Assembly: GCF_028864635.1 (NCBI RefSeq)
Contig: NZ_CP104850.1
Coordinates: 2,052,001-2,116,000, forward strand
Direction: 5' to 3'
DNA from: Cloacibacterium sp. TD35
Lineage (GTDB): Bacteria; Bacteroidota; Bacteroidia; Flavobacteriales; Weeksellaceae
Length of the DNA stretch: 64,000 nucleotides
Shown here in pieces: positions 4,030-9,187 of this stretch (position 1 is its first letter; each line of letters starts with the position of its first letter). The translations under genes were made by a program, and so were the position numbers. The notes under the pieces were generated by a model, which had not been told where the DNA came from, did not search any database, and saw nothing but the letters and a program-made list of their open reading frames with translations.

Positions 4030-5076
4030 ATGAAGAAAATGACGAACGTTTTTGATAACATTCTCGGATTAATTGGAAATACTCCAATGGTTAAACTTAA
4101 TGAAGTGACCAAGGATATTCCTGCAAAAGTATTTGCTAAAATAGAATCTTTTAATCCGGGGCATTCTACTAAAGATAGAATCGCGCTTCATATTATAGAA
4201 GCTGCCGAAAGAAAAGGTCTTTTAACCCCAGGTGCTACCATTGTAGAAACCACTTCTGGGAATACAGGCTTTTCAATCGCTATGGTAAGTATTATAAAAG
4301 GATATAAATGTATTCTTTCTGTAAGTGATAAAACAAAACCAGAAAAAATTGCTTATTTAAAGGCTCTAGGTGCTACTGTATACGTTTGTCCAGCTTCTGT
4401 TCCTGCAGATGATCCTCGTTCTTATTATGAAGTAGCAAAAAGGATTGCAGCTGAAACGCCTAATTCTATCTATATCAATCAATATTTTAACGAGCTTAAT
4501 ATAGATGCACACTACTCTTCTACTGGTCCAGAAATTTGGGAACAGACTGAAGGAAAAATTACTCATCTTTTTGCATGTACAGGAACTGGTGGAACACTTT
4601 CTGGTTCGGCTAAATTTTTAAAAGAAAAAAATCCTGATATCAAAATTATTGGTGTAGATGCAGATGGTTCTATCTTAAAAACCTATCATGAAACAGGCGA
4701 AATAGACCCTTCTGAAATTCATTCATACCAAATTGAAGGTTTAGGCAAAAACCTTATTCCATCCGCTTTGCTTTTTGACAGAATAGACCATTTTGTAAGA
4801 GTAAATGATGAAATGAGTGCTTATTGTACTAGAGAAATAGCACTTAAAGAAGCGATTATGGGTGGTTATACTACAGGAGCTGTTTTACAAGCTCTTAGAC
4901 AATATGCTCATGCAAATCCTTTCTCTGAAAACGATTTAGTAGTCTTAATTTTCCCTGACCATGGTTCTAGATATATCACCAAAGTATACAGTGATAAATG
5001 GATGGAGGAACAAGGATTCATCAATAATTGTGTCCATAATTACGAAGAAGTTTTTAAAACAGAATATATTAAATAA
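4030..5076 (+). CDS. PLP-dependent cysteine synthase family enzyme; candidate L-cysteate synthase
   Basis: A 348-residue fold-type II PLP enzyme resembling the catalytic core of cysteine synthase and cystathionine beta-synthase, without CBS domains. The PLP lysine is Lys48 in NPGHSTKDR, where typical family members have GGSVKDR. The substrate loop TSGNTG is at 75-80 and the phosphate-binding TGTGGT at 184-189. The usual reaction is replacement of an O-acetyl or O-phospho group of serine by sulfide. The next gene is an alpha-oxoamine synthase of the type that condenses cysteate with a fatty acyl group, so I infer that this enzyme may supply cysteate, with sulfite as nucleophile. Ordinary cysteine synthase is the alternative. 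A terminator separates the pair but they are only 74 bp apart. Confidence 0.75.
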   Translation: MKKMTNVFDNILGLIGNTPMVKLNEVTKDIPAKVFAKIESFNPGHSTKDRIALHIIEAAERKGLLTPGATIVETTSGNTGFSIAMVSIIKGYKCILSVSDKTKPEKIAYLKALGATVYVCPASVPADDPRSYYEVAKRIAAETPNSIYINQYFNELNIDAHYSSTGPEIWEQTEGKITHLFACTGTGGTLSGSAKFLKEKNPDIKIIGVDADGSILKTYHETGEIDPSEIHSYQIEGLGKNLIPSALLFDRIDHFVRVNDEMSAYCTREIALKEAIMGGYTTGAVLQALRQYAHANPFSENDLVVLIFPDHGSRYITKVYSDKWMEEQGFINNCVHNYEEVFKTEYIK

Positions 5077-5085
5077 AAATAGAAT

Positions 5086-5116
5086 TCAGATGTCCTTCTT
5101 GGCATCTGATTTTTTT
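5086..5116 (+). terminator. Terminator between the cysteine-synthase-like and oxoamine-synthase genes
   Basis: TCAGATG pairs with CATCTGA, and inner CC/GG can also pair; a run of seven T follows. No TAnnTTTG box is evident in the remaining gap to 5151, so read-through may feed the next gene. Confidence 0.65.
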
Positions 5117-5150
5117 AAAATTTAAAATACAAATCCACAATATCATCGAA

Positions 5151-6425
5151 ATGAAAGATATTTTTGAAAGAATTAAAGAAAATCCTGGTCCTCTAGGTCA
5201 ATTTGCAGATTATGGTGAAGGTTATTTCATTTTTCCAAGATTGGAAGGTCCAATTGGACCTAGAATGAAATTCCAAGGAAAAGAAGTAATTTTTTGGAGT
5301 GCAAATGATTATTTAGGACTTTGTAATCACCCAGAAGTTCTAGAAGCTGATGCTAAAGCAGCTGCTGAATATGGTATGTTCTACCCTATGGGAGCTAGAG
5401 CAATGTCTGGTGAAACAGAACAACACTTACAATTAGAAAGAGAATTAGCTGATTTCGTAGGAAAAGAATCTGCTTATTTATTGAATTTCGGTTACCAAGG
5501 AATGCTATCTACAATTGACGCGTTGATTTCAAGACATGACGTAATTGTATATGATTCTAATTCTCACGCTTGTATTGTAGATGGAGTACGTCTTCACATG
5601 GGAAAAAGCTTCATGTTCCGTCATAACGACATGGAAAGCTTCGAAAAAAATATCAAAAGAGCGACTAAAGTTGCAGAAGAAAACGGCGGCGGTATTTTAG
5701 TTATCACTGAAGGAGTTTTCGGGATGACTGGTCAACAAGGTAAGCTTAAAGAAATTGCAGAATTTAAAAAACAATACAGTTTCCGTTTATTAGTAGATGA
5801 TGCTCATGGTTTCGGTACTTTAGGAAAAACTGGAGCTGGAGCTGGAGAAGAGCAAGGTTGCCAAGACCAAATTGATGTGTACTTTTCTACTTTTGCTAAG
5901 TCTATGGCTGGTTTCGGTGCATTTATCGCTGGAAACAAAGAAATCATCAGATACTTAAAATTCAATCTACGTTCTCAAATTTTCGCAAAATCATTGACTA
6001 TGCCAATGGTAATAGGAGGTTTAAAGAGATTAGAACTGTTAAGAACCAGACCAGAAATCAAAGCTAAACTTTGGGAAAATGTAGAAAAACTACAAAGTGG
6101 CCTACTAAAAAGAGGTTTCAACTTAGGAAACTCTAACACTTGTGTAACTCCTGTTTTCATGCAAGGAACACCAGTAGAAGCTACTCTTTTAGTTAAAGAT
6201 TTAAGAGAAAACTTCGGAATTTTCACTTCTGTAGTTGTATATCCAGTAATTCCAAAAGGAAGCATTCTTCTAAGATTAATTCCTACAGCTTCTCACACAG
6301 ATGCTGAAATCAATGAAACTCTTGCTGCTTTTGAAGCTATTCACGATAAATTAGTGAATGGTGTTTACAAGCAACAAGCTGAAAAATTATTAGAAGAACA
6401 AAATTTGAGTTTTAAACCGCTTTAA
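5151..6425 (+). CDS. Alpha-oxoamine synthase family acyltransferase; candidate cysteate-fatty acyltransferase for capnine synthesis
   Basis: A 424-residue PLP enzyme of the family containing 8-amino-7-oxononanoate synthase, 2-amino-3-oxobutyrate CoA ligase and serine palmitoyltransferase. It shows SANDYLGL near residue 50, the cofactor aspartate in VDDAHGFGTLG, and the Schiff-base lysine Lys250 in STFAKSMAGFG. Such enzymes decarboxylatively condense an amino acid with an acyl thioester. In Flavobacterium johnsoniae and related bacteria a member of this family is the cysteate-fatty acyltransferase that makes the sulfonolipid base capnine. The neighbouring cysteine-synthase-like gene supports that reading here. 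Serine palmitoyltransferase is the main alternative and cannot be excluded from sequence alone. It ends at a strong terminator. Confidence 0.8.
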   Translation: MKDIFERIKENPGPLGQFADYGEGYFIFPRLEGPIGPRMKFQGKEVIFWSANDYLGLCNHPEVLEADAKAAAEYGMFYPMGARAMSGETEQHLQLERELADFVGKESAYLLNFGYQGMLSTIDALISRHDVIVYDSNSHACIVDGVRLHMGKSFMFRHNDMESFEKNIKRATKVAEENGGGILVITEGVFGMTGQQGKLKEIAEFKKQYSFRLLVDDAHGFGTLGKTGAGAGEEQGCQDQIDVYFSTFAKSMAGFGAFIAGNKEIIRYLKFNLRSQIFAKSLTMPMVIGGLKRLELLRTRPEIKAKLWENVEKLQSGLLKRGFNLGNSNTCVTPVFMQGTPVEATLLVKDLRENFGIFTSVVVYPVIPKGSILLRLIPTASHTDAEINETLAAFEAIHDKLVNGVYKQQAEKLLEEQNLSFKPL

Positions 6426-6447: not shown

Positions 6448-6477
6448 AAACCGTTTGGAACTCCAAACGGTTTTTTT
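6448..6477 (+). terminator. Terminator of the oxoamine synthase gene
   Basis: AAACCGTTTGG and CCAAACGGTTT form an 11-bp stem with a 4-nt loop, followed by a T run. It argues against any start of the next gene upstream of about 6480. Confidence 0.9.
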
Positions 6478-6974: not shown

Positions 6975-6982
6975 TACCTTTG
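6975..6982 (+). promoter_or_regulatory. -7 promoter box of the radical SAM gene
   Basis: TACCTTTG matches TAnnTTTG. It overlaps the TTG at 6980, so that codon would not be transcribed as part of the message. The next in-frame TTG at 6998 lies 16 nt after the box, within the gap seen at other promoters here. Confidence 0.65.
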
Positions 6983-6997
6983 CAAAAATTCATTTTT

Positions 6998-9187
6998 TTG
7001 AAAGATTTACTGCTCATCACTCCTCCATTTACCCAACTCAATACGCCGTATCCTGCAACTGCGTATTTGAAAGGATTTCTCAATACCAAAAATATTTCGA
7101 GTTACCAAATCGATTTAGGAATTGAAGTCATTCTAGAAATTTTTTCTAAAAAAGGAGTAACCCAAATTTTTAACGTAAAGCCCGAAAATTTATCTGAAAA
7201 TGCTCAGAGAATTTTTGCATTGAGAGAAGAATATATCAAAACCATAGATGAAGTTATTGCTTTTCTTCATAACAAAAAACCAACACTTGCAAGACAAATT
7301 TGCAGTATGAATTTCTTGCCAGAAGCTTCCAGATTTAATCATTTAGATGATATGGAATACGCTTTTGGAAACATGGGATTACAAGACAAAGCAAAGCATC
7401 TCGCTACCCTTTACTTAGAAGATTTATCAGATTATATTATAGAAAATATTGATGAAAATTTTGGATTCAGCAGATATGCAGAACGACTAGGAAGAAGCGC
7501 CAATTCATTTGACGAATTGTATGAAAAACTTCAATCAGACAAAACTTTCGTAGATAACTTTACTCTTGAAATTTTAGATAAAAAACTTCTCGAAATGCAG
7601 CCGAAACTAGTTTGTTTTTCTGTTCCGTTTCCTGGTAATTTATATTCAGCGTTTAGATGCGCTCAATACATTAAAAATCATTATCCAAAGATTAAAACAG
7701 CTTTTGGTGGAGGTTTTGCCAATACAGAACTTAGGGATTTAAAAGACAAAAGAGTTTTTGAATTTTTTGATTTTATCACATTAGACGATGGCGAACTGCC
7801 AATAGAATTGCTCTTTGAAAACGTCTGCCATTCTAAACATCGTGAAGCATCTTTATTCAAGCGCACTTTCCTCTTAGAAAACGGAGAAGTTGTTTATAAA
7901 AATAACTCTGATAGACACGATTATAAACAAGTTGAAATTGGGACTCCAGATTACACAGATTTACCTTTAGACCAATATATTTCCGTAATAGAAATTGCCA
8001 ATCCTATGCACAGTTTGTGGAGTGATGGAAGATGGAATAAACTCACGATGGCTCATGGCTGTTATTGGGGAAAATGTACTTTTTGCGACATATCGCTCGA
8101 TTATATCAAAATTTATGAGCCTATTGCTGCCAAAATTTTGGTAGACAGAATGGAAGAACTCATCGAAAAAACAGGAGAAAACGGTTTTCACTTTGTAGAT
8201 GAAGCAGCACCACCCGCTCTGATGCGAGAAGTAGCTCTTGAAATTTTGAGAAGAAAATTGGTTGTGACCTGGTGGACAAACATTAGATTTGAAAAAAGTT
8301 TCACCCGAGATTTATGTTTTTTACTAAAACTTTCAGGTTGTGTAGCGGTTTCTGGTGGTCTAGAAGTAGCTTCTGACAGATTATTGAAACTCATTAACAA
8401 AGGAGTTTCAGTTGCTCAAGTTGCCAAAGTTACCAGAAATTTTACAGAAGCAGGAATTATGGTTCACTCCTATTTAATGTACGGATATCCTACTCAAACA
8501 GAACAAGAAACCATTGATTCTTTGGAAATGGTAAGGCAAATGTTTGAAATGGGTATTTTGCAAAGCGGATTTTGGCATCAATTTGCAATGACCGCGCATT
8601 CTCCTGTTGGAAAAAACCCTGAAGAATTTGGGGTAGTTCCTCATTTGAAAGAGATTACTTTTGCCCACAACGATGTAGAATTTATGGATAAAACCGGAAT
8701 TGATCATACTAAATTTAGTTTTGGACTTAAGAAATCTCTGTTTAATTATATGCACGGAATTTGTTTTGAAAATCCACTGCAAGAATGGTTTGATTTTAAA
8801 ATTCCGAAAACTACCATTCATCCTGATTATATTCACGATTGTCTTTTAGAAGAAGATCACTTTAACACCAAACCAAATGCTAAAATTGTTTGGGCAGGAG
8901 CGAAACCTTTGGTAGAGTTTTTCACGAAGTCAAAAAAAGGAAATTCTTGGGAAATGGCAACACTTACCTTCCATGAAAAGACCAATGTTTTCAGTATCAA
9001 TTTAGAAAAAGAAAAAGCAATTTGGTTGTTAGAAAAAATTGAGGAAATCTCTATTCATTCTGAAAAAAACATAACATTTAATCAGTTAAAAGCGAAATAT
9101 GAATTAGATTTTGATGATTTCGAATTGTTTTGGTATTCTAAGCCGATGCAAATTTTAAAAGAAAACGGAGTTATCTTAACCTTATAA
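6998..9187 (+). CDS. B12-binding-type radical SAM protein of unknown substrate
   Basis: About 729 residues. The N-terminal half resembles a cobalamin-binding Rossmann domain of B12-dependent radical SAM enzymes, starting with a typical ITPPFTQLNTPYPA segment and containing AFGGGFANTELR. The radical SAM core carries the iron-sulfur motif CYWGKCTFC (CxxxCxxC variant with spacing C-4-C-2-C) near residue 350. A GGLE glycine-rich SAM-binding motif and YGYPTQTEQET follow. I chose the TTG at 6998 because the promoter -7 box covers the earlier TTG at 6980. The true start is not certain because no ATG precedes the conserved N-terminus. It is monocistronic, between two terminators. The substrate is unknown; methylation or ring chemistry on a cofactor, lipid or natural product is possible. 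Confidence 0.8.
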   Translation: MKDLLLITPPFTQLNTPYPATAYLKGFLNTKNISSYQIDLGIEVILEIFSKKGVTQIFNVKPENLSENAQRIFALREEYIKTIDEVIAFLHNKKPTLARQICSMNFLPEASRFNHLDDMEYAFGNMGLQDKAKHLATLYLEDLSDYIIENIDENFGFSRYAERLGRSANSFDELYEKLQSDKTFVDNFTLEILDKKLLEMQPKLVCFSVPFPGNLYSAFRCAQYIKNHYPKIKTAFGGGFANTELRDLKDKRVFEFFDFITLDDGELPIELLFENVCHSKHREASLFKRTFLLENGEVVYKNNSDRHDYKQVEIGTPDYTDLPLDQYISVIEIANPMHSLWSDGRWNKLTMAHGCYWGKCTFCDISLDYIKIYEPIAAKILVDRMEELIEKTGENGFHFVDEAAPPALMREVALEILRRKLVVTWWTNIRFEKSFTRDLCFLLKLSGCVAVSGGLEVASDRLLKLINKGVSVAQVAKVTRNFTEAGIMVHSYLMYGYPTQTEQETIDSLEMVRQMFEMGILQSGFWHQFAMTAHSPVGKNPEEFGVVPHLKEITFAHNDVEFMDKTGIDHTKFSFGLKKSLFNYMHGICFENPLQEWFDFKIPKTTIHPDYIHDCLLEEDHFNTKPNAKIVWAGAKPLVEFFTKSKKGNSWEMATLTFHEKTNVFSINLEKEKAIWLLEKIEEISIHSEKNITFNQLKAKYELDFDDFELFWYSKPMQILKENGVILTL

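Follow-up and report, generated by a model that had tools for sequence, protein, structure and literature searches.

The window analysed here, the whole 64,000-nucleotide stretch, spans positions 2052001-2116000 of the one-contig genome of Cloacibacterium sp. TD35 (2,595,287 bases, 99.96% complete), and carries two forward-strand open reading frames exactly where the sequence-only reading had placed them. The first, at 4030..5076, encodes a 348-residue pyridoxal phosphate (PLP) enzyme of the CysK/CBS fold, predicted to convert O-phosphoserine and sulfite to cysteate and referred to here as capA. The second, at 5151..6425, encodes a 424-residue protein like CapB, SulA and CFAT, predicted to join cysteate and an acyl-ACP to form 3-ketocapnine; we call the gene capB and its product CFAT. 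Within the 74-base gap between them is a terminator-like hairpin with a T run (5086..5116, forward strand), composed of a stem at 5086-5109 and a T tail, and a second terminator-like hairpin lies directly downstream of capB (6448..6473), assigned by the scan to the reverse strand, with T also following the stem on the forward strand. The pair is followed by a GreA/Rnk-like gene, which matches the nucleoside diphosphate kinase regulator model at 117.2 bits against a cut-off of 109, and by a gene for a 735-residue radical SAM protein (6980-9187) that resembles B12-binding families, with rSAM_ocin_1 as its best model (94.9 bits; cut-off 281.85).

Both profile and structure-sequence matches identify the 424-residue protein (ACYLTRANSFERASE) as an alpha-oxoamine synthase. 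Its nearest solved structure by sequence is PDB 28eh, entitled "Cysteate-C-fatty acyltransferase" (637.4 bits), followed by SulA, 7u7h (563.1 bits), and the serine palmitoyltransferase (SPT) 3a2b (238.2 bits). It is 65.5% identical to 28eh, with Lys281 kept as in the 28eh/28fa enzyme, 59.8% identical to SulA, with every active-site residue retained including Lys281, and 32.1% identical to an SPT of the phylum. The title of the 7u7h entry is generic, and Radka et al. (PMC9304779) identify it as the structure of SulA from Alistipes finegoldii. In a maximum-likelihood tree of 41 rows, SulA 7u7h included, the CFAT clade stands apart from SPT with 100/100 support, and the window protein clusters with the solved cysteate acyltransferases and is closer to these proven enzymes than to SPT, KBL or BioF; the tree proposed in the sequence-only reading thus does not refute that reading. 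The tree program warned that long branches meet where the CFATs split from SPT and KBL, and the residue pattern at position 281 agrees with the split.

According to the same authors (PMC9304779), Lys281 of SulA stands in place of an alanine in SPT, is required for activity, and may discriminate between the two enzymes. Lysine is present at this alignment position in all 34 CFAT-clade rows (the window protein, the two solved proteins and 31 homologues), whereas alanine is found in all four SPT or SPT-like rows, three of which score above the SPT cut-off and one below. Both BioF/Kbl rows have serine and the KBL of this genome has asparagine. The equivalents of Asn53, His140, Lys251 and Arg376 are likewise kept in the window CFAT, but they are common to all 41 rows, SPT and KBL among them, and are therefore unspecific.

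The best NCBIfam match of the 424-residue protein is the Bacteroidota SPT model NF047600, but at 286.8 bits it remains far under the cut-off of 640, whereas three of the phylum's SPTs exceed it (673.8, 720.5 and 746 bits). At E 1e-40 or better there are two oxoamine-synthase matches in the genome, the window CFAT and an enzyme that is clearly a glycine C-acetyltransferase (685.3 bits; cut-off 493), leaving no SPT candidate at this threshold. That the enzyme is a serine palmitoyltransferase initiating sphingolipid synthesis, as its top model would have it, can be dismissed on this score, on Lys281 and on its place in the tree among the CFATs, and the KBL and BioF identities are ruled out by the same tree, residue and scores. 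The warning that generic labels would hide the function of the pair was apt for CFAT. It applies less to CapA, for which a dedicated model exists (NF053679), though the 348-residue protein falls just under its cut-off.

The 348-residue protein belongs to the PALP family (Pfam, 257.7 bits), and its best NCBIfam model is NF053679, cysteate synthase CapA, at 560.3 bits; the curated cut-off of 600 is not reached, and the score by itself does not place the protein in this family. The next model, cystathionine beta-synthase (CBS), is 198 bits lower at 361.8. The protein is 59.0% identical to PDB 9k2p and 45.9% to a solved CBS; 9k2p, the nearest solved relative of CapA, is titled merely as a PLP-dependent protein and not as a cysteate synthase. 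The model alone is indecisive because a CBS-like paralogue in the same genome (L172) also has CapA as its best model (441.7 bits, against 422.6 for the CBS model, both under the cut-off).

When 34 rows are placed in a tree, the 348-residue protein lies inside a CapA clade of 20 rows (99/99), with CBS-type enzymes and its own paralogue outside, and the clade is separate from both CBS and CysK (99/99 and 100/99). The clade takes its name from CFAT neighbours and the NF053679 model, with no assayed CapA among the tree rows, and it comprises the window protein, nine named relatives (eight CFAT-adjacent, and L132, which is not), seven proteins of family f2, two of family f5 and PDB 9k2p. The sequence-only reading had singled out an altered lysine motif, NPGHSTKDR, which is present at residues 42-50. 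Its histidine is not unusual, however, as the CBS-type proteins L198, L200, L202 and L204 carry NPGHSIKDR, and some CapA-clade members read NPGQS or NPGLS. Eleven alignment columns split the 20 CapA-clade rows from 13 CBS-type rows. One is residue 47, directly before the PLP lysine, which is Ala, Ser or Thr in the CapA clade and Ile or Val in the CBS-type enzymes; the ten others include 74, 82, 183, 234, 240 and 241, and several of the separating columns are in or beside the SGNTG, GTGGT and EGxGxxxIP loops. These columns were chosen after the groups had been drawn from the tree, and they describe the split rather than test it.

The archaeal cysteate synthase that had been offered as a precedent proves to be a different family (TIGR03844). 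At E 1e-20 this genome contains no match to it, and we rejected it as the identity of the 348-residue enzyme. TIGR03844 is above its cut-off in five of 296 genomes of the phylum, all of family f29 (L210-L213 and G293). The best CFAT matches in these five genomes are at the SPT/KBL level only (E 2.4e-68 to 8.8e-61).

The window CFAT shares 99% identity with its counterpart in Cloacibacterium normanense and 95% with the one in C. rupense, and as read from the tables a CFAT of at least 71% identity is present in 99 of 100 genomes of the family; the sole exception is an 80% complete MAG (G308) with a paralogue-level match. Gene order was compared in named loci representing the best 80 of 576 CFAT matches (75 Weeksellaceae, two Flavobacteriaceae and three unassigned; 61 are Chryseobacterium). 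After three with too little upstream DNA were dropped, the capA gene is directly upstream of CFAT in 73 of the remaining 77; conservation of this kind is not due to chance. The four loci that differ are two from Bergeyella zoohelcum (L076 and L130), one from Riemerella anatipestifer (L147) and the MAG L132, in which CapA is about 8 kb from CFAT. L130 and L147 keep CFAT and have no CapA within about 10 kb to either side. Relative to the window, the Chryseobacterium CFATs are 85-90% identical (61 loci) and the CapAs 82-86% (59 loci); C. gleum sequences are not among these loci.

Across the 296 phylum genomes, a CFAT-grade match (at least 45% identity) is found in 108 by a count from the tables, and CapA at 62% identity or higher, among the matches listed, in 36; these 36 make up the full sample from families f1 and f2. 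Read by eye, the two genes are adjacent in 18 of these 36, with all seven f1 genomes and 11 of 29 in f2. In the 17 genomes sampled from genus g4, and in G088, they are not adjacent and often lie on different contigs. A CapA-clade protein, at 54-56% identity, is also present in two f5 genomes. CapA may be missing from as many as about 70 of the phylum's CFAT-bearing genomes; this figure is an upper bound, because clade membership was tested for 22 PALP proteins, own paralogues included, and the count otherwise refers to the matches listed.

These distributions bear on whether the 348-residue enzyme is instead a CBS or cysteine synthase that merely adjoins CFAT, with cysteate coming from elsewhere. 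CBS is indeed the next best family, the CapA cut-off is missed, and most CFAT-bearing genomes beyond f1 and f2 give matches of about 48-56%, many to frames of CBS length (among the matches listed). However, the same genome has a CBS-like paralogue as well as a separate, unambiguous CysK (410.9 bits against a cut-off of 350.95), and CapA is therefore not needed for cysteine; the enzyme also sits in a well-supported clade with its own residues in or beside the substrate loops, and all 36 sampled f1 and f2 genomes have both genes, adjacent in half of them as in nearly all of the named relatives. We regard this alternative as very unlikely.

Among the named loci, the radical-SAM gene lies in the pair's flank in 52 of the 72 whose downstream sequence is long enough. 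Unrelated genes are kept as well, including an ATP-synthase-beta-like gene (named by eye) in 55 of 72 and an upstream gene for a 1161-residue protein in 67 of 71; because such neighbours are kept alike, plain synteny explains its retention and it was rejected as a pathway component. A conserved neighbour that might be the N-acyltransferase did not emerge either, as in a clustering of 24 loci no family other than CFAT and CapA occurs in more than five. A diacylglycerol-kinase-like gene (by eye) is near the CFAT genes of two f23 genomes (L054:7183-8082, and L055:13426-14334 on the reverse strand).

The hairpin between the genes is widely shared. Under a looser scan it is found in 74 of 75 gaps of the named relatives compared with seven of 750 dinucleotide-shuffled gaps; an earlier and stricter scan had found it in 45 of 75, and the looser rule was also the one applied to the shuffles. 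Of the 75 gaps, 67 are distinct, and Chryseobacterium contributes 60 and other sources 15; they are not independent. The letters of the stem vary by genus, for example AAGCC..GGCTT, AACC..GGTT and AATCAGTC..GACTGATT, with stem pairing being the scan's own search criterion. In Chryseobacterium gaps such as those of L103 and L096, a near-repeat, AAAATYACGATACA, flanks the hairpin on both sides, the second copy immediately preceding the start of capB. Terminators commonly follow single genes.

Because a terminator-like hairpin separates the genes here and in almost all of the relatives' gaps, a plain capA-capB operon is doubtful, and capB probably has its own transcription, at least in part. One possibility, compatible with the functions argued for here, is that the genes form no transcription unit at all, that their proximity reflects shared ancestry, and that each is expressed alone. 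The hairpins and the separation of the genes in g4 and G088 are consistent with this, but adjacency in most named relatives and in 11 of the 29 sampled f2 genomes is difficult to account for unless proximity brings an advantage or the genes share control in some way, and we think this possibility less likely than not. More speculatively, a hairpin of varying sequence could deliberately stop most transcripts after capA and so provide an excess of CapA over CFAT, with sulfite derived from oxidised reduced sulfur, for instance by way of the weak cysteine-dioxygenase-like gene described below, as the genome has no match to a PAPS reductase or sulfite reductase, and with the sulfonolipid serving as an outlet for sulfite; this combined scheme seems to us unlikely.

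Together, the cysteate acyltransferase and CapA assignments and the gene order make it highly probable that Cloacibacterium uses this pair, a cysteate synthase and a cysteate fatty acyltransferase, for the first two dedicated steps in making sulfonolipid (capnine), and the sulfonolipid reading made from the DNA alone is supported in this respect. From the same data we infer substrates, an acyl donor, a mechanism, a reductase and a lipid product as follows. CapA would bind PLP at Lys48, as judged by its motif, and convert O-phosphoserine to an aminoacrylate intermediate, to which sulfite would be added to give L-cysteate. CFAT/CapB would then form a PLP aldimine with cysteate and take an acyl group from acyl-ACP to yield 3-ketocapnine and CO2, an unlinked short-chain reductase would produce capnine, and an N-acyltransferase would complete the sulfonolipid.

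Several of the remaining components can be sought in the genome. SerC, the phosphoserine maker, is encoded (443.8 bits; cut-off 443.6). There are 19 PF00106 matches, and of ten of these proteins scanned for family, one has KdsR (3-ketodihydrosphingosine reductase) as its best family (222.9 bits; cut-off 400). This protein, the best candidate for a ketocapnine reductase, is encoded at G000:C1:1013278-1014063, unlinked and about 1 Mb from the pair, and it is matched in 92 of 100 family genomes (E 1e-60). A three-gene cluster with the reductase was rejected, as the region 4030-6425 contains just two genes.

The supply of sulfite is less straightforward. Neither PF01507 (PAPS reductase) nor PF01077 (NIR_SIR) has a match in the genome, with 14 of 14 and 11 of 14 control genomes positive, respectively. 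These missing matches, in a genome encoding a sulfonate-lipid path, are a point against our preferred explanation, and because of them sulfite may have an external origin or derive from the oxidation of cysteine or sulfide. There is a weak cysteine-dioxygenase-like match at G000:C1:1372763-1373188 (40.6 bits; cut-off 23), and 24 of the 100 family genomes have the like.

For relatives, the two enzymes and their pathway were already published between 2021 and 2024. Wu et al. 2024 (PMC11211663) describe for Chryseobacterium gleum a four-step path that starts at L-phosphoserine and ends at sulfobacin B, using Cys, CFAT and ketocapnine reductases; the reductase genes do not adjoin cfat1 and Cys1. 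The window proteins belong to the same family as Cys and CFAT of C. gleum DSM 16776 (Hou et al. 2022, as cited in PMC11211663), and the Chryseobacterium genes are mostly adjacent; it is a different genus, however, and the sulfobacin synthesis reported is that of C. gleum. According to a review (PMC10191378), CapA converts phosphoserine to cysteate, CapB condenses cysteate with acyl-ACP, and CapC reduces the product. The CapA/CapB system of Capnocytophaga (Liu et al. 2022, as summarised in PMC10191378) similarly consists of a phosphoserine-using cysteate synthase followed by a cysteate acyltransferase, although it is from another organism and the likeness is to its description and not to named sequences. 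Alistipes and Odoribacter are described there as having an archaeal-type cysteate synthase in place of CapA, and the window pair, with its CapA, thus differs from Alistipes in the first enzyme. A literature search found no paper joining the terms 'Cloacibacterium' and 'sulfonolipid', and the analysis extends the published sulfonolipid pathway to this genus. It also provides a usable marker for the acyltransferase in Lys281, and candidate markers for CapA in the residue before the PLP lysine (Thr, Ser or Ala versus Ile or Val) and in the loop residues.

In three distant genomes of the phylum the CFAT domain is part of a larger protein. These fusions of 1143 residues (L050:2145-5576, family f44), 1108 residues (L051:9571-12897, reverse strand, family f41) and 1126 residues (L052:7472-10852, family f39) have an AMP-binding domain and a phosphopantetheine carrier domain followed by a CFAT domain with Lys281. 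The AMP-binding domain is probably a fatty acyl-AMP ligase, which suggests that the fusions use self-loaded acyl-ACP as the donor. The halocapnine path of Salinibacter-like bacteria is called not well defined in PMC6508672, and by inference the fusions are a candidate for it. In L050 and L051 a glyoxalase-like gene (by eye) follows the fusion gene.
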